61,894 nt of DNA from an uncultured Rhodospirillaceae bacterium (GCA_903924765.1 CAIYCT010000009.1:1-61894), one strand, 5' to 3'; positions 1 to 12,374 are shown, counted from the first letter of the stretch. Notes: generated by a model not told the origin, from the letters alone. A program made the numbers and translations.

Positions 1-1
1 G

Positions 2-979
2 TCGTTCAACACCACCACATCCATGGGCCGGTTGACGCTCAACATCCTGCTCAGCTTCGCCCAGTTCGAGCGCGAGGTGATCGGCGAGCGCATCCGCGAC
101 AAGTTTGCTGCGTCACGGCGCAAGGGCATGTGGATGGGCGGGGTGCCGCCACTCGGCTACGACGTGGTCGCCCGCAAGCTGGTGGTTAACGAAACTGAAT
201 CCGATCTTGTGCGGCACATCTTCGACCGCTTTCTCAAGGTCGGATCCGCCACCCTGCTGGTGAGAGAATTGAACGAGGCCGGTTATCGAACCAAGTCCTG
301 GGTCACCCAGGACGGCAAGAACCGGCAGGGAGCGCTCTTTACCAAGAACTTCCTCTACAAGATGCTTGGTAACCGGGTCTATCTCGGCGAGGCCGTCCAT
401 AAGGGAGAGGCCTACGCCGGCGACCACGAGGCCATCATTGACCGCACCACCTGGGACCGTGTCGAGGCGATCAAGACTGACAACGCCCCTCGCAAGCGGG
501 CCAACATGGCGCGTGCTACCACACCCGCACCGCTCAAGGGCTTGGTAATCTGTGCCCATTGCGGCCGGTCGATGACGCCTAGCCACACCCGCAAGAAAGG
601 GCGGCTCTACCGGTACTATACCTGCATGAAGGCGATCAACGCCGGCCACCAGTCCTGCCCGGTGCGAAGCATTGCCGCGGGGGAGATCGAGTCGGCGGTG
701 ATTGGTCAGGTCCGAGCCTTGCTACGCGCCCCTGAGATCCGTGCTCGGGCGGAACGGATGGCGCCGCAACTGGCCCCCGCCGACCTCCATGCCGCCCTCG
801 ACCGCTTCGACACGGTATGGGATGAGCTTTTCCCCGCCGAACAGGCTCGCCTCCTCCAACTGCTGGTGGAGCGGGTTAGCATTTCGCCCGACGGGGCAGA
901 CTTGCGCCTACGCGCGGAGGGACTGGCCAGCGTGGTTGCCGACATCACGGCCCAAGCCAGTGAACGGAGCGCGGCATGA
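2..979 (+). CDS. Large serine recombinase (partial, 5' end outside window)
   Basis: The frame is already open at base 2, so the start and most of the catalytic resolvase domain, including the active serine, lie upstream. What is visible begins with the end of the catalytic domain and its long helix (the SMGRLTLNILLSFAQFERE region). A recombinase domain follows (PPLGYD onward). Next is a zinc-ribbon with Cys-x2-Cys (CAHCG) and a second Cys pair further on. The C-terminal tail is short and helical. Such proteins integrate and excise phages and mobile islands by cutting DNA with a serine. The stop codon overlaps the next start by four bases, implying coupled translation. An internal ATG at 23 is not a credible start because the conserved domain continues through it. 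Confidence 0.93.
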   Translation, partial: SFNTTTSMGRLTLNILLSFAQFEREVIGERIRDKFAASRRKGMWMGGVPPLGYDVVARKLVVNETESDLVRHIFDRFLKVGSATLLVRELNEAGYRTKSWVTQDGKNRQGALFTKNFLYKMLGNRVYLGEAVHKGEAYAGDHEAIIDRTTWDRVEAIKTDNAPRKRANMARATTPAPLKGLVICAHCGRSMTPSHTRKKGRLYRYYTCMKAINAGHQSCPVRSIAAGEIESAVIGQVRALLRAPEIRARAERMAPQLAPADLHAALDRFDTVWDELFPAEQARLLQLLVERVSISPDGADLRLRAEGLASVVADITAQASERSAA

Positions 980-1374
980 GCGGCGTTAGCATCAACACCT
1001 TCACCGTCCGGGTGCCGCTGAAGCTGAAGCGATATGGCGGCCGCAAGTTGGTCATCGTGCCTGATGGGGGCGGGATTCCTGAGCGGCCCAGTGCCAGACC
1101 GGACGACACCCTGATGAAGGCTCTGGCTCGCGCTCATCGCTGGAAGCGCATGCTGGAAGCCGGGCAGGTGGCATCCCTGAACGAATTGTCCGAAGCCGAG
1201 AAGATCAATCCGTCCTATCTGTCCCGCATCTACCGCCTGACCCTGCTGGCTCCCGATATCGTCGAGGCCATACTTGATGGCCGCCAGCCGCGCACCCTGC
1301 AACTGGCTGATTTAATGGGCGAATTGCCGGTGGAGTGGGCTCGCCAAAGAGAAATTATTTTCTCTCAGATTTGA
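976..1374 (+). CDS. Small recombinase-partner protein with a KorB/ParB-like HTH
   Basis: This 132-residue protein overlaps the recombinase stop by an ATGA junction, so the two are probably translated together. The central part (about residues 45-110) has the pattern of a ParB/KorB-like helix-turn-helix: a helix after ASLNELSEAE, then INPSYLSRIYRLTLLAPDIV, and a segment ending in LQLADLM. Proteins of this kind often sit directly behind serine recombinases in alphaproteobacterial prophages and islands. A role as recombination directionality factor or DNA-binding accessory is plausible but is inference from position only. No enzyme motif is seen. Confidence 0.7.
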   Translation: MSGVSINTFTVRVPLKLKRYGGRKLVIVPDGGGIPERPSARPDDTLMKALARAHRWKRMLEAGQVASLNELSEAEKINPSYLSRIYRLTLLAPDIVEAILDGRQPRTLQLADLMGELPVEWARQREIIFSQI

Positions 1375-1539
1375 CTGTGACCGCTACTGTCACCATCCCC
1401 CTGCTTATTCATGATGAGAATACCAAAACTGCATTCTGTGGGCGCCCCCTACCTTCGGTAGAATTCTCTCTGAATCAGCTGGCCATCTTGAAAAATTTTG
1501 AATATTCTACTCCATGCTCTGCACTGGAGAAAATCGGCT

Positions 1540-1719
1540 ATGCCCGAAGATGAGATCATGACCGTTCGCAGTGTGGCGGATTTCCTCAAGGTCACTGAAC
1601 GAACGATCTATCGTTTGGCGGCAGAGGCGCAAATTCCGTCTTTTAAGGTCGGGGGATCGTGGCGGTTTCGCCGCTCAGATCTTGAAGAATGGATGGCAAA
1701 GCAGGCTGACCGCTCGTAG
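1540..1719 (+). CDS. Excisionase-family helix-turn-helix protein
   Basis: A 59-residue protein with the MerR/excisionase-type winged helix: VADFLKVTERTIYRL forms the HTH and FKVGGSWRFRRSDLEEWM the wing and following helix. I chose the ATG at 1540 because it is preceded by a GGAG sequence at good spacing; the frame is open further upstream, but the additional residues (HALHWRKS) do not look like part of the domain. It lies about 40 bases upstream of the defence operon in the same orientation. It may be the excision factor of the island or a repressor of the defence genes; the sequence cannot decide which. It is unlikely to be part of the enzymatic machinery. Confidence 0.8.
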   Translation: MPEDEIMTVRSVADFLKVTERTIYRLAAEAQIPSFKVGGSWRFRRSDLEEWMAKQADRS

Positions 1720-1757
1720 GGACGTATTCCCGACCGAGGATTAAGGGGGGATGAAGA

Positions 1758-4508
1758 ATGTTGGGTCTGGAGCTGCGCGAAGAATTCCGAGGTAAGCGCC
1801 TCAAGGGAACGGCCATTGAGCTATCGAATGAAGCCAACACGGGCGCGACCCAGATCGCGGCTAAAGAATTTCTCCAGATCACCTACCCGACGCACGACCT
1901 GCTGAAAGGTATTGAAGCGGTTGGCCCGAATCAGGGCCGTCCGGTGGTAGTGATTGGCGAGCGTGGCCTTGGTAAGTCTCACTTGATGGCGGTGCTATAC
2001 CACGCGGTGAACGACGCGACCTCGACTGGCAATTGGCTGAACTCCTGGGCCTCCATGCTAGGCGACCCGCAGATCGGCAAGATTGGCCTACGCTCCGGAA
2101 TGGAGGTGATCGGCGAGAGCCTTCACCGGCAACGCTACAAGTTCCTGTGGGACTTGTTGTTCGAGCGCCATCCCTACGGCACCTACATCAAGGGCAAATG
2201 GGAAGGCATGGGTGCGGCCAAGACCGACATCCCTTCCGACAAGCTGATTCTTGAGCTGCTGGAGAACAAGCCGACTATGCTGCTTCTGGACGAATTCCAG
2301 ACGTGGTACGACGGCCTGACCAACACGAAGCAATACCCTTGGAAGAACTGGGCGTTTAATTTCATCCAGATCCTTTCTGAGATTGCAAAGGAACGACCTG
2401 ACTTATTGGTGCTGGTGATTTCGGTGCGCAACGGGGGCAGCGATGCCTACCAACAGGTGCATCGCGTCAATCCGGTTGCCATTGACTTCAAAGCGGGCGG
2501 TAACGCAGAGCGCATCCAGCAGGATCGTCGCCGGATGTTGCTGCATCGCCTCTTCGATAATCGACTGCAGATCGCGAATGGCACGATTGAGGCGTTGGTC
2601 GCTCAGCACGTAACGGAGTACTTCCGCTTGCTCGCTGTTCCTCCCGCCGAGCAGGATCGGAAACGCAGTGAATTCATCGAGTCCTGGCCCTACGCCCCGC
2701 ATTTGCTGCGTCTTCTCGAAGAGCAGGTGCTGATCGCAACTGACGCGCAGGAAACGCGCGACATGATTCGCATCCTGGCCAACCTCTACAAGAGCCGTGG
2801 CGAGGTCGCTCCGGTGCTTACGGCCGCAGACTTCCGTCTGAATGACGATGCGTCAGGCATCGCTGCCCTGCTCGATTCCGTGTCTAATGAGCATCACCGC
2901 ACGTTGCGTGCGAAAGCACAGCAGAACATCATTTCGGTTACTGAGGCGGTTTCCGGCCACGCAACCCATGCCCCGCACCTTCAGGAAATCGTAGGCGCAT
3001 TGTGGCTGCGCTCGATTGCCGTCGGCAACCTGGCTGGCGCCGAGCCCGCGATTCTGCAGGTTGATATCACGCGGAACAAGCCCATCGACGATAATGCATT
3101 CCAAGTCGAACTGGCGACCATCGTTGAAAACAGCTTCAACATCCACCAGGAAGGCCCCCGATTGGTTTTCCGCGAGGAAGAGAATCCGCGGGCCAAGCTG
3201 ATGGCCTGCGCGCGCAACGACAAGCTGTTCGCCGATGGTTCCGACCAGATCCAACTTGCCAAGCAGGTTCGCTATGTGATCAGCGGTACCGACGAGGTCG
3301 CGAAGACATTCCGTGTGATCGCGTTACCGCAATCCTGGCAGACTGACCCGTGGTCAACACTCGACGAAGCCGAGCATCCAGATCGATGGGATGACCGTCT
3401 GCCCATCCTGGTGCTACCGGAAGAACCCGACAACATCGACCAGCGCCTTGGCCGCTGGCTCAAGGATCACTTGCAGAAGCGCCGCAACACCATACGATTC
3501 CTGTTGCCGCGATCCGGCTCGTCGAATGCATTCCAGGATCGTGATCTGCTGATCCTGGCGCGCGCCGAGATGAAGGCGCAGGAGTGGAGCGGCCAGAATC
3601 CTGAGTACAAGAAGCTGCACACCGAATTCCAGGGGGCGTTGCGCGATAATCTGAAGAAGCGCTTCGATCGCTTTTCCGTGCTGCATCGCTGGAATTTTGC
3701 CGATCCGAACCAGTGCATGTTCAGCGTCGAGAGCCTGAAGAAGCAAGGCGCGCAAATTCCCGAAGGCATCGAAGAGGCGTTGACCACTGACCTGTTCGTT
3801 CCCGAGGACTTTGAAGACCTCGTGCGGGAAGCAGCCGCCGAAAACTCGGCCGTAGGCAAGCTGCTGCGCGAGCTTCAGGAGCCTCGTCCGGCGGGTCAGG
3901 ACTGCATCCCCTGGCTTGGCGAAACCGCGATGAAGGAGCGCATCTTGCGCCTGTGCGCGCGGGGCAAAATCGCCATCAACCTGCGCGGCCTTGAATACAT
4001 CCAGACTCATCCGGGTGAAGACGAGGAAGCGGCGTGGAAACGCCTGCGTCCAAAACTCTCCTATACCGGTCGCCAGCTCGACGAGGTGTTCCTGATGGAA
4101 CCATCGGCGGTGCCGACCACGGGTGGAACCACGCCTCCCGCACCCGCGCCACAAGCACCTGCTGGCGAGGGAGGTGAAGGCTTATTTGGTGACGGAACAT
4201 CGCCGCAGCCAAACCCCAATGGCGGTGACACACCAACCGGGGGCAGCACGCCTCCGTCTGATGGCGGGATCTTCGGTGGTGGGGCCACGGGCGCTGGCGG
4301 CAAGCCTCGCATCCCTCTGAGCAACCCGGCCACCTCGCCGCTGAATCTGATCGGAAAGCTCGAAGGCTGGGGCATCGGCCCCGCCACACTGGTGGCGGAA
4401 GTCGCGATCAAGGTGTCTGCGGCAAATGGCGCCCAGCTCAAGGAACTGCTCAAGAAACTGCCGGACGGCATGACCTTCGAGCTCAGCCTTGAGAAGGAGG
4501 ACAGCTAA
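1758..4508 (+). CDS. DUF499-type AAA+ ATPase (BrxC/PglY-like) of the defence operon
   Basis: This 916-residue protein begins the defence operon. A Walker A motif GERGLGKS lies at residues 67-74, a Walker B MLLLDEF at 174-180, and a sensor-1-like strand ending in SVRNG near 216-226. The overall pattern matches the DUF499/COG1483 family of large ATPases that accompany DNA methyltransferases and PglZ in defence islands, playing the part BrxC/PglY plays in BREX. Residues about 780-850 are a low-complexity Pro/Gly/Thr linker. It is followed by a compact C-terminal domain (GKLEGWGIG to the end), a layout suggesting a tethered interaction module. The stop overlaps the next start by one base (TAATG). 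Assignment to the family is confident; the exact mechanism is unknown. Confidence 0.85.
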   Translation: MLGLELREEFRGKRLKGTAIELSNEANTGATQIAAKEFLQITYPTHDLLKGIEAVGPNQGRPVVVIGERGLGKSHLMAVLYHAVNDATSTGNWLNSWASMLGDPQIGKIGLRSGMEVIGESLHRQRYKFLWDLLFERHPYGTYIKGKWEGMGAAKTDIPSDKLILELLENKPTMLLLDEFQTWYDGLTNTKQYPWKNWAFNFIQILSEIAKERPDLLVLVISVRNGGSDAYQQVHRVNPVAIDFKAGGNAERIQQDRRRMLLHRLFDNRLQIANGTIEALVAQHVTEYFRLLAVPPAEQDRKRSEFIESWPYAPHLLRLLEEQVLIATDAQETRDMIRILANLYKSRGEVAPVLTAADFRLNDDASGIAALLDSVSNEHHRTLRAKAQQNIISVTEAVSGHATHAPHLQEIVGALWLRSIAVGNLAGAEPAILQVDITRNKPIDDNAFQVELATIVENSFNIHQEGPRLVFREEENPRAKLMACARNDKLFADGSDQIQLAKQVRYVISGTDEVAKTFRVIALPQSWQTDPWSTLDEAEHPDRWDDRLPILVLPEEPDNIDQRLGRWLKDHLQKRRNTIRFLLPRSGSSNAFQDRDLLILARAEMKAQEWSGQNPEYKKLHTEFQGALRDNLKKRFDRFSVLHRWNFADPNQCMFSVESLKKQGAQIPEGIEEALTTDLFVPEDFEDLVREAAAENSAVGKLLRELQEPRPAGQDCIPWLGETAMKERILRLCARGKIAINLRGLEYIQTHPGEDEEAAWKRLRPKLSYTGRQLDEVFLMEPSAVPTTGGTTPPAPAPQAPAGEGGEGLFGDGTSPQPNPNGGDTPTGGSTPPSDGGIFGGGATGAGGKPRIPLSNPATSPLNLIGKLEGWGIGPATLVAEVAIKVSAANGAQLKELLKKLPDGMTFELSLEKEDS

Positions 4509-5497
4509 TGGCGCTCGACGCCGGGGTACTGCACAGCCTGACCAAGGGCACCGCCGAGGATGCGTGGCGCGTCATCATCAACAAGGCCGTCGAGATCGCA
4601 TCCAAGTCGCTGGCCGCTGGCAACGCGCCAAGCGAGGTCATCAAGCGAGACCGCGAAATCGGTGCACTCGATCACTTCCTGTCGTCCAGCGGCTGGGACC
4701 TGTGGCAAGCCTTCGGCGACACCGTCGAACGCACCTCGGATCGTCTCGTTCGCTGGTGGTCCGAGCCCTACAGCGCCAAGGCGGTGCTGATTCTCGACGG
4801 CCTGTCGCTGCGTGAATTGCCCTGGCTGCTGCAAGGGGCCAAGGAGCGAGGCTTCACACTCCACGACGTCGCGGCCAACGCCTCCGAGCTGCCCGGTGAA
4901 ACCAACGAATTTGCCCAGGCGCTGGGATTCGGCAGCCGCAGCCAGCTTCAGAACAACGGCGGCGGCCTAGCGCACCGGCTTGTGCCGGCACAGACAGAAT
5001 GTGTCGACATGCCGTGGAGGGATTGCCAGGGGTTGATCAACGGAACCCCCAACTGGGTGTTTTGGCATCACTGGCCCGACAGCAAGGTTCACGATGGCGC
5101 TGGCGCTGGCCAAGGACTCGACACGCTGACCCGCGACGCCGCCGACCAGCTCAGCAGCGATGACTTCTGGGCCTTAGTCGAGCGATTGGCCACCGGGCGG
5201 CGGCTGGTCATCACCTCCGATCATGGCTACGCCGCCACGGGCTACTTCCCGGATGCCGATGGCGAGGTCGGCCAGTTCCTAAAGAAGACCTTCGCCAGCG
5301 GGCGCAGCACCAAGGGCGCCGGAGAGACTGGACCGTTCGTGCCGCCGGTAGCCCTCCAGATCAACAGCCCCCACGGCGCTCACCTCCTGGCCGTTGGCCG
5401 GTGGAAATGGAAAAGCCAGGGCGGCTACCCGACGCTGACGCACGGCGGCCTCTCGCTGCTTGAGGTGCTGTCGCCCTTCGTCGAGCTCACGAAATAA
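4508..5497 (+). CDS. pglZ: Compact PglZ-domain protein (alkaline-phosphatase fold)
   Basis: This 329-residue protein carries the PglZ hallmarks. ILDGLS at about 95-100 has the metal-binding Asp97. A central HHWPDSKVHDG lies at 187-197. SDHGYAATG with Asp238-His239 follows, and the terminal HGGLSLLEVLSPF has His312. PglZ is the signature component of BREX systems and of the Pgl phage-growth-limitation system; it has an alkaline-phosphatase-like metallo-hydrolase fold. Canonical BREX PglZ proteins are roughly twice as long, so this is a minimal version retaining the core and lacking the usual large flanking regions. It starts by one-base overlap with the ATPase stop, and the methyltransferase follows after 12 bases with its own ribosome-binding site (AAGGAA). 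Confidence 0.85.
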   Translation: MALDAGVLHSLTKGTAEDAWRVIINKAVEIASKSLAAGNAPSEVIKRDREIGALDHFLSSSGWDLWQAFGDTVERTSDRLVRWWSEPYSAKAVLILDGLSLRELPWLLQGAKERGFTLHDVAANASELPGETNEFAQALGFGSRSQLQNNGGGLAHRLVPAQTECVDMPWRDCQGLINGTPNWVFWHHWPDSKVHDGAGAGQGLDTLTRDAADQLSSDDFWALVERLATGRRLVITSDHGYAATGYFPDADGEVGQFLKKTFASGRSTKGAGETGPFVPPVALQINSPHGAHLLAVGRWKWKSQGGYPTLTHGGLSLLEVLSPFVELTK

Positions 5498-5509
5498 GGA
5501 ACGCGTCGC

Positions 5510-8500
5510 ATGGCAACCAAGAAAGAACTCCTGGCGCAAGAAGTCGCCAAGGCCGTCGGCGCAGGCAAGATCGTCGCGCTGGAAACCGTTGATTTCAACG
5601 ACCCGAACCGTCCCCTGACCTGTCTGGAGGTGGACTTCCCGATCTTGCCGGTCAATCAGGTGGCGATCATCGAAGGCAATGCGGGCAAGCCAATCTACCA
5701 AATGTCAAAATGGTGGGCGCGGCGTCGTTCCAGCGTATTCCGTGCGATGTTGATCGCGGCAGCCACTAAGGCCCCCGAGGACAAATCGCACGCGGCCAAG
5801 CTGGTGTGGGACAACTACTATGCCAACCACCAGAAGAAAGGCGCATTCAAGCATCTGAAGGTGGCCGACATATTCATGGGCGGCGGCACCACCTTGGTTG
5901 AAGGCTCCCGTCTTGGGATGCAAATGGTCGGCAATGACCTGAACCCGGTCGCGTGGTTCGTGGTCAAGCAGGAACTGGCCAATGTCGATCTGGAAGAGGT
6001 GAAGCGCCTGCTCGCCGACATCGAGGCCGAAGTCAAGCCGCAGATCATGCCGTACTACTATTGCGATGGCCCGAACGGTGAAAAGGGCACATGGACGCAT
6101 GTGCCGACCAAGCGGGTGATGCCTGCCGCCTTCAATCCGCTCACCCTGACCCCAGAGCAGCGGCGCGAGTACACCTACGAAGGCCCCGAGATCATCTACA
6201 CCTTCTGGGCCAAGCACGGCCCCTGCCAAGTGACCGGCTGCGGCCACCGCACGCCGATCATGACCAGCCCGGTGATGGCGGTGAAGACGCTTACTGTCAA
6301 ACATTGGGAGCATTCCTGCAGCAATTGCGGCGAAGAGTTTCACGTCGAGGAAAATGCCGCGCGCATGGCGCCCGATGTGCCGTTGTACGTGGCACCCTCC
6401 GAGTACCCATTCTCCGTGCTCGACCGCAAGAGGGGCGTTGTCTGTCCGCATTGCGGCCACAGCGCGCTCGCGAATCTCGGCAAGGGTAAGAACAAGAAGG
6501 TGGAACTGAGCCTGCTGGTGCATCCGCAGTGGCTGGCGGGTTCGCCCAAGCAGGACGCAAACGGCCAGCCCTACGGCGGCTCGGCACAGAACGATGTGGC
6601 CGCGACCACGCGGTGGGACAGTGAGCGCGCATCCAAGATTCTCCTGTTGGAAGTGCGTGGCACACTGCCGGATGAAGTGACCTGCCCGGAAACGAAGATC
6701 ACCTTCGCGCCGGAAAATGGCACGGTGCCGAAAAAATCCCACTACGCCTGCGCAGCATGCGGCACGGTGCAGGATGTGTTGACCACCATTAAGGCCACCA
6801 GCAAGACGGGGCCGATGGCTGCCTACGCGGTGCAGGGCTACGCGCCCAAGCGCAATGCGGCGGGCAAGCCTTACAGCGGTCGCTTCTTCGCAGCCTACGG
6901 CACAGCGTACGCCCGGCAATACGACACTGCGTTCGCTGAATGGAAAGCGCGCAAGGATACTGACCTCAAGGACTATTGGCCGCGTTCCGAGCTGCCATAT
7001 GGTTTCATGACGCACCACCTACAGGGCGGCGTCCCGAACCACGGCTTCACCCACTGGTGGACTATGTTCAATCCGCGCCAATTACTGGTGCACGCGCAAC
7101 TGCTCAAGGCAATTGTCAACGTCGGGAACTATGACTGGCAGGTGCGAGAGTATGTGCTCGGTGCTTTCCAGAATTTTTTGCGCAATCAAAATTCGCTCGC
7201 GTTCTGGCACATGAAACTCGACAAGTTGGCTCCAGCCATGTCGAACAGCAACTTCCACCCCAAGAATAACGTTGTTGAAGTAGGTGTCTTTCCGCCAATG
7301 GGCTATGGCCCATGGTCGTCCACATTTGAGGTTTTATTCAAAGGTGGGGAGTGGGCGAAAACACCGTGGGAGGCCGTCAGTGCAGAATATCTAAGTCGGC
7401 ACGCACCGAGCATTGCAGGTGAGGTGTCTGGAAAGAGCGAAAAGGTGCATCCCGGCGATCCCTTGCGCGGTGCCGAAACGTATTGTGGCTCGTCCACCGA
7501 TCTGGCCCAGCTTGAAAGCAGCAGCCTCGATCTGGTTATCACCGACCCGCCCTTCGGCGGCCTCCTGCACTACTCGGAACTGGCCGATTTCTTCTATGTC
7601 TGGCTTCGTCTCGTACTCAAAGGAAAATACCCGGATTACTTCAGCGCAGAGTACACGCCCAAGTCTCTGGAGGCCGTCGCCAACCGCGCCCGCGAACCGG
7701 AAGACCCGGACGGCTTCTACCAGCGCCTGCTTACCCAGTGTTGGCGTGAGGCGCATCGCGTGCTCAAGCCCAGCGGCATTCTCGCCTTCACCTTCCACCA
7801 TAGTGAAGACGAGCCATGGGTGGCGGTGCTGGAATCGCTGTTCGACGCTGGGTACTACCTGGAGGCTACGTATCCGATCCGCTCAGATGAAACCAAGGGC
7901 GAAGGGGAGTTTGGTTCCAAGACCATCGAGTACGACATCATCCACGTCTGCCGCAAGCGCACCGAAGAGCCAAAGCCGGTGAGCTGGGGTCGGATGCGCC
8001 GCGAGGTGATGGCCGATGTACGCCAACTGCAGGCGATGCTGGAGAACCACGCCAAGGAAGGTCTGCCTGCGGCGGACATTCAGGTAATCCGGCGCGGCAA
8101 GGCGCTGGAATACTTCTCGCGTCACTACGGCAAGGTCTATGTCGACGAGGGACGCACGATCTCGGTGAAGGATGCGCTGGTCGGCATCAACCAGCTGATC
8201 GACGAGGATGCCGATAAGGGCAAGGAGCCACCGCCGGTCAATGCCGAGCCGATCACGCGCCAGTTCCTGCGCACCTTCGGCAACGGCACAGAGATGAAGC
8301 GTGACCAATTACAGAAGTTCCTCAAGGGCTCGATCACCACGCCCGACGAATTCGAGCAACGCGGCTGGTGTGCGGAAAAAAGCAAGGTCTTCACGCGGGT
8401 GAATCCGCTCGACTTCGCCCGTGAGTGGTCGGGCAAGCACAAGCGCCGTTTGACCTCGGATTTGGATCAGGCGCTGGTGCTCATCGGGGCGTGCTTCGAT

Positions 8501-8713
8501 GGCAGCGGCATCAATGCGTCAGACACGTTGAAGAACGAAAACTTCACCCCCCATGTCGCGCTGAAGCCATTGCTCGAATGGTTGCACAAGAACGGCCCGG
8601 ATCAGGCCAGCCGCAATGCTGCCTCGCGTGCGGTCTCGATCCACAACGCTTGGTTGGCAAGCCAGTCTGGGAAGCCGACGCAAGGCTCGCTGTTCGAGGA
8701 GTACGAGCAATGA
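5510..8713 (+). CDS. DUF1156 / Zn-ribbon adenine-specific DNA methyltransferase
   Basis: A 1067-residue DNA methyltransferase of the DUF1156/COG1743 type. The N-terminus has the DUF1156 pattern (YQMSKWWARRRSSVFRAML, near 63-81). The SAM-binding motif I (DIFMGGGTT) is at 120-128 with NDLNP following. The catalytic DPPF motif is at about 679-682, typical of adenine-N6 methylation. Between these lies a long insert with several Cys-x2-Cys pairs (GPCQVTGCGH, CSNCG, CPHCG, CAACG), consistent with zinc ribbons. The C-terminal third is likely target recognition. It would modify host DNA so that the system spares self. The stop overlaps the next start in an ATGA junction. Order of motifs is I then IV, so it is not circularly permuted. 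Confidence 0.88.
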   Translation: MATKKELLAQEVAKAVGAGKIVALETVDFNDPNRPLTCLEVDFPILPVNQVAIIEGNAGKPIYQMSKWWARRRSSVFRAMLIAAATKAPEDKSHAAKLVWDNYYANHQKKGAFKHLKVADIFMGGGTTLVEGSRLGMQMVGNDLNPVAWFVVKQELANVDLEEVKRLLADIEAEVKPQIMPYYYCDGPNGEKGTWTHVPTKRVMPAAFNPLTLTPEQRREYTYEGPEIIYTFWAKHGPCQVTGCGHRTPIMTSPVMAVKTLTVKHWEHSCSNCGEEFHVEENAARMAPDVPLYVAPSEYPFSVLDRKRGVVCPHCGHSALANLGKGKNKKVELSLLVHPQWLAGSPKQDANGQPYGGSAQNDVAATTRWDSERASKILLLEVRGTLPDEVTCPETKITFAPENGTVPKKSHYACAACGTVQDVLTTIKATSKTGPMAAYAVQGYAPKRNAAGKPYSGRFFAAYGTAYARQYDTAFAEWKARKDTDLKDYWPRSELPYGFMTHHLQGGVPNHGFTHWWTMFNPRQLLVHAQLLKAIVNVGNYDWQVREYVLGAFQNFLRNQNSLAFWHMKLDKLAPAMSNSNFHPKNNVVEVGVFPPMGYGPWSSTFEVLFKGGEWAKTPWEAVSAEYLSRHAPSIAGEVSGKSEKVHPGDPLRGAETYCGSSTDLAQLESSSLDLVITDPPFGGLLHYSELADFFYVWLRLVLKGKYPDYFSAEYTPKSLEAVANRAREPEDPDGFYQRLLTQCWREAHRVLKPSGILAFTFHHSEDEPWVAVLESLFDAGYYLEATYPIRSDETKGEGEFGSKTIEYDIIHVCRKRTEEPKPVSWGRMRREVMADVRQLQAMLENHAKEGLPAADIQVIRRGKALEYFSRHYGKVYVDEGRTISVKDALVGINQLIDEDADKGKEPPPVNAEPITRQFLRTFGNGTEMKRDQLQKFLKGSITTPDEFEQRGWCAEKSKVFTRVNPLDFAREWSGKHKRRLTSDLDQALVLIGACFDGSGINASDTLKNENFTPHVALKPLLEWLHKNGPDQASRNAASRAVSIHNAWLASQSGKPTQGSLFEEYEQ

Positions 8714-9210
8714 AGCAACTGCTCGACACGGTGTGGCAGCGGCGCGGGACCAGCTGGATTTGGGACGAGGAAGCGCGCAATCAGATATGCGTTGCCGGCG
8801 AAGTCTGGAGTCTTCGCCGGTTCCTGCAGGCGGTGGGAAATTGGCCCGACGACCTGCCAAGCAACAGCAGCAACACGCTGGTGGTCGCGGGCCTCGAAGG
8901 CTGTCTCGACTTATTGACGCCAGAGGATGCTGAAGCGTGGCTAGGCGACGTGACAAAGCAGGCGATCCTGTCGTTCCAGGATGCCTATGACGGGCAGGCG
9001 GCGCTGATTTTCTGGCTGCCCTCCGGTCAGGGGCGCATCAAGTTTCATCCCGCCACGGACTCCATCGAGTGGCGCTGTGCGGCGCCACACAGTGACAACC
9101 TGCTTGCCTTCGGCCGCATTTTGTGGGGCGAGGCAAACGAGTATCCGCAGGATATTCTTCTGCGCGAGGGCGGCAAGCCTGCAGGTCTGTTCCACCTGAG
9201 AATTACCTGA
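8710..9210 (+). CDS. Uncharacterised 166-residue defence-operon protein
   Basis: I chose the ATG at 8710, which overlaps the methyltransferase stop by four bases; the longer open frame upstream lies wholly inside the methyltransferase gene. The protein is acidic and Trp-rich (WQRRGTSWIW, FWLPSGQGRIKFH, IEWRC) with no Walker A motif, Cys cluster or membrane segment. It has a regular alternation of short strands and helices and no obvious active site. Position between methyltransferase and helicase suggests an adaptor or small subunit. In BREX type 3 a small protein, BrxF, accompanies the ATPase, and a DUF3780 protein accompanies the DUF499/DUF1156 pair in other islands. I cannot show that this is either. 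Expression is almost certainly coupled to its neighbours. Confidence 0.75.
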   Translation: MKQLLDTVWQRRGTSWIWDEEARNQICVAGEVWSLRRFLQAVGNWPDDLPSNSSNTLVVAGLEGCLDLLTPEDAEAWLGDVTKQAILSFQDAYDGQAALIFWLPSGQGRIKFHPATDSIEWRCAAPHSDNLLAFGRILWGEANEYPQDILLREGGKPAGLFHLRIT

Positions 9211-9219
9211 GGTCAACGC

Positions 9220-11988
9220 GTGGAAGCCTATGCTCAATTCCAATCTGGCGAACGGATCACCCACCACGAGTATGGCCAGGGTGTCGTCCTCGACCAGGCC
9301 CATGATGGCTACCTGCGTGCCTTCTTTAGCGTCGGCGAGCGGCGGGTGCCAGTGGCTTCGGTCCGTCGTGAAATGTCCCGAACGGAACGCATTCTGCGGT
9401 CACTGGAAGGCGGGGCCGAACGGGCTCGCAAGGCATGGCTGGCGCTCGAAGCCCATTCGCTTCCGGTCATGGAAAGCGCGTCAGCCCTAACCTCGGCTAA
9501 GATTGATCTGTTGCCGCATCAGGTGGTGTTGACCCACCGAGTCGCCACCGCCTCGCCGCGTCGCTTCCTGATCGCCGATGAAGTCGGCCTCGGCAAGACC
9601 ATCGAAACCGCGCTCATCCTACGCGAACTGGCCAGCCGTGGCGAAATGAACCGGGCGCTGATGGTGGTGCCCGCAGGCCTGGTCAATAACTGGCACCGCG
9701 AGCTGAACGAGGTGTTCAACCTCGATTTCGAGGTGTTCGGCTCCGAGGGCGATATCACCGACCGCAAGACCAATGCTTTCGCCAAGCATGATCGATTGAT
9801 CGCCAGCATCGATACCTTGAAGCGACCGGCACGCATCAAGAGGTTGCAGGAAGCGCCGCGCTGGGATCTGGTGGTGTTCGACGAAGCCCATCACCTCACC
9901 GCCTATCGTACCGGCGGCAAAGTTCGGAAGACGGAGAACTACAAGCTGGCCGAGGCGCTTAAGGGGCATGCTCGCGACCTGATCCTGCTGTCGGCAACCC
10001 CCCATCAGGGGAACCACTTCCAATTCTGGATGCTGGTCCAACTGCTGAATCCCACCTTGTTCAAAAGCCCGGAGGAGATGGTCGAACACCGCCATCGTCT
10101 GAACACGGTCATGTTTCGTCGCACCAAGGCCGATGCTTGCCGACCTAATGGCGATCCGCTTTTCGCCCGCCGGTGGGTGCATGCCGAGTCATTCCTCATG
10201 GGCGAAGAGGAAAGGCGCTTCTATGAGAAGCTGCGGGAGTATCTGGAGGATGGCTTTAACCTTGCCCAGCGGCAAGGAAATCAGGGACGCGCCCTGGGCT
10301 TCCTCATGGCGATCTTTCAAAAGATTGCCGCCTCCAGCTTTGCCGCCGTGCGGCGAACCCTGAAGCGCCGTCTGCTGATGCTGACCTTGCATGAAGCTCT
10401 GCTGCGGGACAAGGAACTCGACATCGAGGGGCGGGAACGCCTGACCGATGAGGCTCGGGACCTGATTCACGAGGAATTCGCGATCGACCGCAACAGCGTC
10501 GGCCGAAGCGAGGTGGACCGGATCATGGCCGATTTGAAATACCGTCTGGTCAAGAAGCTGGACGAGGAGGCCCTGGAAATGGCCTCCGACCCCTACGGCA
10601 GCGAGTTTTCCTCAGCCCATGCCGAGGAAGCCGCCTCTGCCATGGTTGATCTGCACCTGCCTGAGGAGCGGATGCGCATTCGCGATTTGCTCGGGGTGTT
10701 TCCGGCTCAACGTGAGACCAAGGCCCAAAAGTTGCTGGACGGCCTGGGGACGCTGTGGCGGCAAAATCCGAACGAGAAGATCGTCATTTTCGCCACCTAT
10801 CTGGGGACGGTCGATCTGCTGGCGCGGGAAATCGAACAGACCTATCCAGGACAGGGCGTGGTCGTCCTGCGCGGTGGGGATCACGGCGCCAAGGTGGCGG
10901 CGGAACGTCGATTCCGCCAGAAGGATGGCCCGCGCGTGCTGGTCTGTACCGCCGCTGGTCGCGAGGGCATCAATCTCCAGTTCGCCCGCATCCTGTTCAA
11001 TTTCGATCTGCCCTGGAATCCCATGGATGTCGAACAGCGAATCGGCCGCATTCATCGCTACGGACAGAACCACACGGCCCAGGTCTACAACCTCATCCTC
11101 TCCGACACCATCGAAGGCCGCATCTTCCTGCTGCTGGATGAAAAGCTCACCGAGATCGCCCGCACTGTGGGCAAGGTCGATGAGCAAGGCAATGTGGCGG
11201 AGGATTTGCGGTCCCAGATTCTTGGACAGCTCTCCGAGCGGCTGAACTACGACCGCCTTTATCAAGAGGCCTTATCGGATCCCGAGCTCAAGCGAACGAA
11301 GGTCGAGCTTGAGGCCGCCCTGTCGAACTCCAAGGAGGCCAGGCAGGTCGTCTTTGATCTTTTCCAGGATCTGGAAGGCTTCAGCCTCGACGACTACAAG
11401 CCGTTTTCGGATGTGTCGTCGAGCATGGAACGCCTAATCGCCTTTCTTGGCGCGGCCGTTGCTGATCGCCAACAGCGCATCATCAAGGCCGATGGCCGAA
11501 TATACGATCTGGTAACTGCGGAGGGGACGCGACGCGCTCGATTCACCACCGACCGTGATGCCGCAACCAGCAGCGACAACCTCGACTTGTTGGGGCTCGA
11601 TCATACGCTGGTTCAGGAAGAGCTTGGGCGATGGCGCAGCGTGCCGCCCGAGGAATTGGGCATTGCCGTCGAGGGAGATGCTGGGGAGCCGGCTCTGTTG
11701 TCTTTCTGGCTGGTGGAAGCTTCTACCGGCAGCGGTGAGCGCAGGGTCATTATCCAGCCGATCGCGGTTAAGATGGACGGCACACGGGTGCCCACGGTCG
11801 AACGCCAAGGGCAGCGATACCTGCAAGCAGTTCCTGCGAAAGCGACCCTGTCAGCGGAACAGCGTCTTGAGCTATTTACCCGAGCGGTTGAGCCGACTCT
11901 TCAGCGTGAATTGAAGCACAAGGGGGCTGCAAATGGCGATGGCAGCTATTCTGCGGAATTGATCGGATGTATCGAAATCATCGGGTGA
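9220..11988 (+). CDS. SNF2-family (RapA/BrxHII-like) helicase of the defence operon
   Basis: A 922-residue superfamily 2 ATPase starting at GTG 9220, with a GAGG ribosome-binding site nine bases before. Motif I (DEVGLGKT) is at 120-127, DEAH at 221-224, SAT at 258-260. The second RecA lobe has AGREGINLQ and the motif VI QRIGRIHRYGQ near 605-616, typical of SNF2/RapA translocases. The first about 45 residues resemble the small beta-barrel HxxYGxGVV module that precedes or follows several nucleic-acid motors. BREX type 3 and DISARM both use an SNF2-like helicase beside a methyltransferase, so it probably translocates on phage DNA. It is the last gene of the operon. The C-terminal 300 residues match no motif I can name. 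Confidence 0.88.
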   Translation: MEAYAQFQSGERITHHEYGQGVVLDQAHDGYLRAFFSVGERRVPVASVRREMSRTERILRSLEGGAERARKAWLALEAHSLPVMESASALTSAKIDLLPHQVVLTHRVATASPRRFLIADEVGLGKTIETALILRELASRGEMNRALMVVPAGLVNNWHRELNEVFNLDFEVFGSEGDITDRKTNAFAKHDRLIASIDTLKRPARIKRLQEAPRWDLVVFDEAHHLTAYRTGGKVRKTENYKLAEALKGHARDLILLSATPHQGNHFQFWMLVQLLNPTLFKSPEEMVEHRHRLNTVMFRRTKADACRPNGDPLFARRWVHAESFLMGEEERRFYEKLREYLEDGFNLAQRQGNQGRALGFLMAIFQKIAASSFAAVRRTLKRRLLMLTLHEALLRDKELDIEGRERLTDEARDLIHEEFAIDRNSVGRSEVDRIMADLKYRLVKKLDEEALEMASDPYGSEFSSAHAEEAASAMVDLHLPEERMRIRDLLGVFPAQRETKAQKLLDGLGTLWRQNPNEKIVIFATYLGTVDLLAREIEQTYPGQGVVVLRGGDHGAKVAAERRFRQKDGPRVLVCTAAGREGINLQFARILFNFDLPWNPMDVEQRIGRIHRYGQNHTAQVYNLILSDTIEGRIFLLLDEKLTEIARTVGKVDEQGNVAEDLRSQILGQLSERLNYDRLYQEALSDPELKRTKVELEAALSNSKEARQVVFDLFQDLEGFSLDDYKPFSDVSSSMERLIAFLGAAVADRQQRIIKADGRIYDLVTAEGTRRARFTTDRDAATSSDNLDLLGLDHTLVQEELGRWRSVPPEELGIAVEGDAGEPALLSFWLVEASTGSGERRVIIQPIAVKMDGTRVPTVERQGQRYLQAVPAKATLSAEQRLELFTRAVEPTLQRELKHKGAANGDGSYSAELIGCIEIIG

Positions 11989-12282
11989 GAGGTGTATAGA
12001 CCGATCAAATCGACCCCAGCCTCCTTCGCCCCAACAACGCAAAATAAGAAATTGCCAACCGAAAACCCCAGCCATCTAATTGATTTTGCATAAGTTTTTA
12101 ACCCGTACCGCTTGGCGGCAGTCAACAGCTTGCAGAGAATACGGGCCGAAGAGAAGAGAAAACCGGCCGAAATTTGGTCGCCACAAGACTAAGCGGTCAA
12201 CAGCTACACGCCGCAAACGGCGCAGAGCCTTGGGCTTTCGTCCAAGGCTCTGTGCGTCAGAGAATCTATTCTTTGAAAGTAA
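11989..12282. other. Intergenic island edge with an 11-bp perfect hairpin
   Basis: No gene is supported here. The left half is more AT-rich than the operon. A perfect inverted repeat, CAGAGCCTTGG at 12223-12233 and its complement at 12242-12252, forms an 11-bp stem with an eight-base loop. A smaller hairpin (CGCCG/CGGCG, around 12210) sits beside it. No T-run follows on either strand, so it is not a standard intrinsic terminator. The ten-base word GTCAACAGCT occurs twice, near 12119 and 12196. Confidence 0.5.
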
Positions 12283-12374
12283 TGGCGGAGGGGGAGGGAT
12301 TCGAACCCTCGGTAAGATTTACATCCTACGACGGTTTAGCAAACCGTTGGATTAAGCCACTCTCCCACCCCTCC
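12283..12374 (-). tRNA. tRNA-Ser (anticodon GCU)
   Basis: On the minus strand the sequence runs GGAGGGG (acceptor), a D-arm, an anticodon arm ACGGT-TTGCTAA-ACCGT with anticodon GCT, a long variable arm, a T-arm with GGTTCGAATCC, then CCCCTCC, discriminator G and an encoded CCA. The long variable arm and 92-base length fit class II tRNA-Ser reading AGC and AGU codons. Its 3' end faces the defence island. Confidence 0.96.

Follow-up and report, generated by a model that had tools for sequence, protein, structure and literature searches.

An intact five-gene operon that fits the Type-3 BREX-Related systems, beside a tRNA-Ser gene of an uncultured Rhodospirillaceae bacterium

Three BREX-Related (BR) systems, all centered on a DUF499 protein, were defined in January 2026 (Rakesh and Krishnan, NAR; PMC12839542). 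As described there, Type-3 BR combines a DUF499 ATPase, an N6-methyltransferase, a BrxHII-like helicase that has lost its nuclease and a stand-alone PglZ; the stand-alone PglZ is active across all 569 taxa, and an inactive STAND (iSTAND) protein is present in 82%. That paper treats the small protein as a relative of BrxB/BrxF, an inactive STAND NTPase; in its scheme a subset of the methyltransferases carries two 4C zinc fingers, the DUF499 protein has C-terminal RRM and wHTH domains, and auxiliary effectors are given as absent or rare. The literature it summarizes includes a Type-1 BREX PglZ that nicks DNA, and whether PglZ alone can restrict is still debated for BREX. The embedding of defense genes in DUF499/Hma clusters generally was reported in a preprint (Payne et al., 2024, as cited in PMC12988326 and PMC11411939).

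Here we compare with these systems a locus from an uncultured Rhodospirillaceae bacterium. The window that was analyzed, 61,894 nucleotides in length, is contig C9 of genome G000 from base 1, and the features of the locus are the following.

23 to 979, plus strand: large serine recombinase, C-terminal part (the contig starts here), with the Pfam families Recombinase and Zn_ribbon_recom
976 to 1374, plus strand: 132-aa companion gene overlapping the recombinase gene; no family match; conserved with the recombinase on contigs C372 and C529
1540 to 1719, plus strand: putative regulator of the HTH_17 kind (MerR/excisionase-like), 59 aa, first gene of the unit (Pfam PF12728)
1758 to 4508, plus strand: gene A, DUF499 AAA+ ATPase, 916 aa (Pfam DUF499; Walker A)
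4508 to 5497, plus strand: gene B, stand-alone PglZ domain, 329 aa (predicted fold; conserved motifs)
5510 to 8713, plus strand: gene C, DUF1156-type N6-adenine DNA methyltransferase, 1067 aa (PADLOC HmaB; Pfam N6_N4_Mtase)
8710 to 9210, plus strand: gene D, 166 aa, candidate inactive STAND protein, BrxB/BrxF-like (weak fold matches)
9220 to 11988, plus strand: gene E, SNF2/RapA-type helicase, 922 aa, GTG start (PADLOC BrxHI; RapA in the PDB)
12092 to 12310, no strand: putative right arm or attachment region, whose last 28 nt overlap the 3' end of the tRNA-Ser gene (repeated copies)
12283 to 12374, minus strand: tRNA-Ser(GCT), putative integration site, 294 nt past gene E (ARAGORN)

The interval 1758-11988 holds five ORFs on the plus strand that form a single tight operon with all frames open and no nested module. 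The junctions, read from the sequence, are a TAATG overlap (A/B), a 12-nt gap (B/C), an ATGA overlap (C/D) and a 9-nt gap (D/E). An earlier note on this DNA had placed a tight five-gene operon in this interval, and we find it at those coordinates and on that strand; its five genes stand, and a sixth, co-oriented gene, that of the 59-aa HTH_17 protein at 1540-1719, had been overlooked. Its domain calls also hold, with DUF499, N6_N4_Mtase, SNF2 and Helicase_C above their Pfam cut-offs and PglZ backed by the predicted fold. One of them holds in part, in that the "DUF1156 methyltransferase" is a methyltransferase by its N6_N4_Mtase and HmaB matches while the DUF1156 profile itself stays sub-threshold.

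The DUF499-type AAA+ ATPase of Type-3 BR is present as gene A, which scores 28.5 bits against the Pfam DUF499 profile (PF04465; cut-off 23) and carries a Walker A motif, GERGLGKS (residues 67-74), together with LLLDE (175-179). The G..G.GKS residues of the Walker A motif show no variation across 79 sequences, and A has no match among the PADLOC models, HmaC and BrxC included. The DUF1156-kind methyltransferase with a zinc-finger-like target-recognition domain is present as gene C, which matches PADLOC HmaB (3.9e-36) and Pfam N6_N4_Mtase (32 bits, cut-off 26.7) and reaches 20.6 bits, under the curated cut-off of 24, with Pfam DUF1156. It contains motif I (FMGGG, residue 122) and motif IV (DPPF, residue 679), with residue conservation taken across 78 sequences, and its target-recognition insert holds two conserved 4-Cys groups, at residues 239/244/270/273 and 312/315/414/417.

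The third feature, a BrxHII-like SNF2 helicase in which no nuclease fusion is found, corresponds to gene E. The PADLOC BrxHI model matches it at 2.6e-99 over residues 94-861, which is nearly the whole protein, the Pfam families SNF2 and Helicase_C are well over their cut-offs, and the best PDB match is RapA. Pfam recognizes no nuclease family in E and no PLD/HKD domain. The DrmD, DrmA and BrxH models match E merely as relatives (DrmD at 300.5 bits, under its cut-off of 610), and HmaA aligns with the helicase part only (83-653), stopping at position 650 of a 1176-position model. Gene D gave no family match, whether to DUF3780 or to any other profile. Its predicted model is confident (pLDDT 89.9), and its best fold matches are almost all to P-loop NTPases, although they are weak (Z ≤4.9; Foldseek E > 0.7), and no Walker A (GK[ST]) occurs in its sequence. 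This weakly predicted P-loop-like fold combined with the missing Walker A makes D a likely but unproven candidate for the iSTAND protein of Type-3 BR, of the BrxB/BrxF-like kind. Scone came up as a possible relative of D and was not counted, the similarity being to two PDB chains over just 35-36 residues (E 0.002-0.003).

Gene B gave no credible profile match in Pfam (39 members), PADLOC or NCBIfam, and likewise none in a sequence search of the PDB, so that its PglZ is recognizable by fold search only. Its AlphaFold model, which is of moderate confidence (mean pLDDT 67, with several active-site segments below 50), matches nine PorX entries over the full length (Z 10.0-11.0; 255-275 residues; rmsd 4.1-4.6) and the BREX PglZ 9zn5 at Z 7.6, against at most 4.8 for unrelated folds. 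The motifs D97-x-L-S100-x-R102-E103, S237-D238-H239-G-Y and H312-G-G are invariant or near-invariant among 90 sequences, with D97, S100, R102, E103, D238, H239 and H312 invariant, and the metal-site motifs are also common to haloarchaeal homologs that are 23-24% identical. The predicted fold supports the assignment of B as a stand-alone PglZ domain, which gives the locus the separate PglZ gene of Type-3 BR, with intact active-site motifs and fold scores of Z 7.6-11. By analogy, B is likely a metal-dependent phosphodiesterase of the alkaline-phosphatase fold and the predicted effector of the operon.

A different role for B has to be weighed, in which PglZ does not cut DNA and, like PorX, hydrolyzes a small nucleotide (an oligonucleotide or a cyclic dinucleotide) to regulate or signal, with restriction left to the helicase or to nested modules. 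It draws on PorX (Z 10-11) outscoring BREX PglZ (Z 7.6) in the full-length fold match, on there being no recognized nuclease elsewhere in the operon, and on the separate effectors present in many relatives. However, the higher PorX score may merely reflect a similar model extent, the nicking of DNA by a BREX PglZ is part of the literature summarized in PMC12839542, and an extra gene within the core is missing from 43 of 78 relatives and from the window copy alike, so that something in the core must act. We regard a signaling role as possible though doubtful, and retain B as the predicted DNA-nicking effector. Since PglZ is bare here and no other nuclease is recognizable in the operon, systems of this type are a clean setting for the question of whether PglZ alone can be the restricting enzyme.

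A genome scan with an alignment of B yielded 213 relatives, of which 80 were kept, and viral contigs supplied six others. The full set of five was found at 78 loci, a count that includes plasmid loci L003-L006 and in which the last gene is sometimes cut by a contig end, and the A-B-C-D-E order on one strand is broken at none of the 78. Where the junctions are empty their lengths are nearly invariant: -1 nt at A/B in 85 of 90, usually 12 nt at B/C, usually -4 at C/D and usually 9 at D/E. Such fixed order and strand make the arrangement far beyond chance. The 78 loci span Alpha-, Beta- and Gammaproteobacteria; metagenome-assembled genomes assigned to Acidobacteriota, Verrucomicrobiota and others add further loci, some of these being on short contigs and possibly misbinned. 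Plasmid-borne copies occur in Aminobacter, Ensifer, Candidatus Tenderia and 34 enterobacterial records, and two haloarchaeal plasmids carry DUF499, PglZ, methyltransferase, a small gene and a Dam methylase in this order. The earlier note had left open to checking whether the five-gene order recurs; it does, in all 78 relatives, and is not unique to this genome.

The plasmid copies show some peculiarities of their own. Among the 34 enterobacterial copies of A only eight are full-length. Another 25 lack the Walker A region and start near residue 210-214, and the last one spans 79-916. Conjugative Klebsiella plasmids are among the carriers, and in most of them the ATPase lacks the Walker A region. 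In one plasmid locus (L005) about 4.2 kb separate the ATPase gene from the carbapenemase gene blaKPC-2 on its upstream side, and the nested SIR2-HerA genes are open.

The mixture of BREX-like and DUF499-cassette proteins had led to the description of this operon as a hybrid, and a chance joining of two defense systems in this lineage would produce such a mixture. Over 55 loci, however, the gene distances of A, B and E correlate at 0.79-0.92 (those of C more loosely, at 0.56-0.65), which indicates that the core has travelled together, and its order is kept at the 78 loci, partly in archaea; we consider a chance hybrid extremely improbable. The looser behavior of C is accompanied by a target-recognition region (about residues 200-790) that varies as one block. 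Across the 55 loci this block is followed clearly above background by none of the segments of A, B, D and E (partial correlation ≤0.28). Such independent variation is the pattern expected if sequence choice sits in C alone, and it is what we would expect were specificity to reside there, as a correlation and not as proof.

The operon fits Type-3 BR, and this assignment rests on the DUF499 ATPase, the methyltransferase, the helicase and the stand-alone PglZ. As in the account given in PMC12839542, the same gene set is accompanied by a small separate gene as a possible iSTAND and is found in bacteria and archaea. BREX types 1-6, tested by a BrxC/PglY ATPase and a full-length PglZ with BrxA/BrxB/BrxL or PglW/BrxD partners, do not accommodate it: PADLOC gives no match for A, B or D, and for C and E it gives methyltransferase and helicase models only. 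The nearest of these is BREX Type 3 (BrxF, BrxC, PglXI, BrxHII, PglZ, BrxA), in which the functional roles are equal and the helicase and methyltransferase are homologous; unlike it, the operon is without BrxA, has DUF499 in place of the BrxC ATPase, and has a bare 329-aa PglZ domain instead of a multidomain protein. The DUF1156-DUF3780-PLD helicase cassette, or Type-2 BR, likewise has DUF499 and DUF1156 proteins, but D has no Pfam match and hence no DUF3780, E has no PLD/HKD domain, and PglZ is present. DISARM (DrmA and DrmB with DrmC/DrmD or a methyltransferase) was also rejected, there being no DrmB match and E falling under the DrmD cut-off.

Another alternative is that the operon is an ordinary Hma system, that is Type-1 BR, or else a degraded BREX operon. 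The PADLOC Hma system does have the same helicase, DUF1156 methyltransferase and DUF499 ATPase, and the HmaB and HmaA models score on C and E. Nevertheless, A matches neither HmaC nor BrxC, HmaA covers only the helicase part of E, and the Hma helicase is longer and ends in a C-terminal nuclease in the description of PMC12839542, with neither PglZ nor D, the two extra genes that recur in order in the 78 relatives. All frames of the operon are open, and a canonical BREX gene set exists separately in the same genome, so we judge both forms of this alternative very unlikely and keep the assignment to Type-3 BR. That other set, on contig C310, comprises BrxC, PglX, BrxH, a 665-aa PglZ and BrxA.

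The earlier note had called the operon a distinct subtype with an unusual gene set that is neither BREX nor the DUF3780 cassette. The last point is correct, that cassette being the Type-2 BR of PMC12839542, and distinctness is supported, since the operon fits none of BREX 1-6, Hma and DISARM and recurs in fixed order in many genera; "unusual" no longer holds, this set having been defined in January 2026 as Type-3 BR. No single named BREX type has all five proteins as its standard members; the named type that does fit them is a BREX-related one. As to the partners said to be missing, no BrxA, BrxB, BrxL or DrmB model is among the PADLOC matches listed for the five proteins, and DrmA appears only as a relative of E, but the absence of BrxB may be wrong in substance because D is possibly BrxB/BrxF-like. 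What the locus represents is an intact, complete bacterial copy of a type already described, with its regulator and mobile-element context.

The regulator is the HTH_17 protein at 1540-1719 (PF12728, E 2.8e-17), a homolog of which lies 30-74 nt upstream of A in 38 of 77 relatives. Elsewhere the position upstream of A is taken by a seven-member WYL-type cluster (three of them Pfam-tested) or by one of four XRE/HigA-like proteins, so that by sequence the regulator slot appears swappable between HTH_17, WYL and XRE; WYL regulators are a type familiar from BREX (BrxR).

Upstream of this regulator lies the serine recombinase, which is likely to be the integrase for the element that carries the operon; an intact relative of it on contig C372 is 87% identical. 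At the DNA level, window 1-1332 is 80% identical to C372, and window 707-1352 matches C529. Past gene E, a sequence of about 220 bp that ends in the tRNA-Ser 3' end is repeated elsewhere in this genome and in relatives, with copies at window 12092-12310, at L120 542-765, at L121 3564-3775 and at several sites in family relatives; these repeats are probably attachment arms, belonging to serine-recombinase elements of one tRNA-targeting family. In the nearest relative, Rhodospirillaceae UBA6219, the stretch in common with the window is only 1488-11978 (92% DNA identity), and this confinement implies that the unit with its regulator moves independently between contexts. On contig C529 of the same genome, BrxL adjoins a recombinase end that is 86% identical to that of the window, with the companion gene. 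We suggest that two sibling recombinase elements, on contigs that are unjoined, may carry two BREX-class systems.

Extra DNA of more than 250 nt lies within the core in 35 of 78 relatives, the other 43 being without an extra gene. The main site is between PglZ and the methyltransferase (B|C, 31/86), followed by D|E (9/78), C|D (5/78) and A|B (2/90). The nested genes include SIR2-HerA at seven loci (L005, L014, L043, L072, L075, L079, L083), IetA with IetS at eight (L021, L034, L065, L073, L077, L080, L084, L086), a ninth IetA locus without an intact IetS (L030), OLD/AriA-like ATPases of HEC-01A (L016, L039, L043, L052, L067), Schlafen proteins (L054, L063, L068, L078), some of them with a ParA-like ATPase, GmrSD (L066) and a PIN protein. 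In a tree of A and B, the main slot changes between filled and empty at least 14 times, and the cargo type changes at least 20 times. Candidate effectors of 249-312 aa also occupy the PglZ|methyltransferase slot (L035 11000-11923, L061 10990-11928, L040 10675-11424, L067 6892-7641, L074 1635-2387); Pfam finds no match for those of L035, L061 and L040, nor PADLOC for L035 and L040, and the L067 and L074 proteins belong to the L040 cluster.

The nesting of so many known antiphage modules provides a strong defense context. It also bears on the proposal that the operon mainly stabilizes the mobile element or regulates expression through methylation, without a part in phage defense. Copies often lie on plasmids and beside recombinases, and an HTH regulator is adjacent, as that proposal would have it; on the other hand, many of the nested modules are known antiphage systems, and a helicase/ATPase/PglZ set would seem costly for mere regulation. 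We find this proposal unlikely, and defense remains our preferred reading of the operon. Defense genes nested in a DUF499/Hma-type cluster are likewise the subject of Payne et al. (2024), and the HEC-01A and HEC-06 families are nested in the relatives here; what we describe is an extension of that work and not a discovery of the phenomenon. Nested modules are common here, unlike in the account of Type-3 BR in PMC12839542, which gives auxiliary effectors as lacking or rarely kept. The main text of that paper makes no mention of SIR2, IetAS or Klebsiella, and we saw in it none of an HTH_17/XRE regulator slot; relative to that main text, the additions are the nested modules at fixed slots, the independently varying target-recognition region and the swappable regulator.

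We now put forward, as probable, that the locus is a Type-3 BR defense operon on a serine-recombinase element beside tRNA-Ser that acts in the following way. This reading builds on the gene content and order, the PglZ fold, the catalytic motifs, the lack of a recognized nuclease domain, the wide conservation and the block-wise variation of the C insert. The N6-methyltransferase C would mark one host DNA sequence by methylation, the sequence being picked by the zinc-rich target-recognition insert of C itself. Unmarked DNA that enters from a phage or plasmid would be engaged by a complex with the DUF499 ATPase A as its base together with D, and A with D would form an AAA+ sensing and assembly platform. 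The RapA-like helicase E would then translocate along or remodel the engaged DNA, and PglZ (B) would be the restricting effector, nicking the DNA in place of the helicase-fused nucleases of Type-1/2 BR. The HTH_17 protein is probably the repressor of the operon.

A further proposal, which we hold tentatively and with more doubt than confidence, concerns the family as a whole. The Type-3 BR core may be an exchangeable immune chassis, in which a fixed frame of ATPase-PglZ and methyltransferase-iSTAND-helicase has a main slot between PglZ and methyltransferase, as well as secondary slots, for whole defense systems that are swapped, co-transcribed with the core and possibly triggered when a phage blocks it.

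The locus is hence no one-off hybrid but a real system, mobile and of a kind named only recently, with its order kept across many distant bacteria. An intact bacterial copy of a predicted defense type, probably antiviral, is now in hand, and in its relatives whole known defense systems are nested at fixed positions of the core. If the core does serve as an exchangeable chassis, systems regarded as independent, such as IetAS and SIR2-HerA, would in part be back-up effectors of that core.
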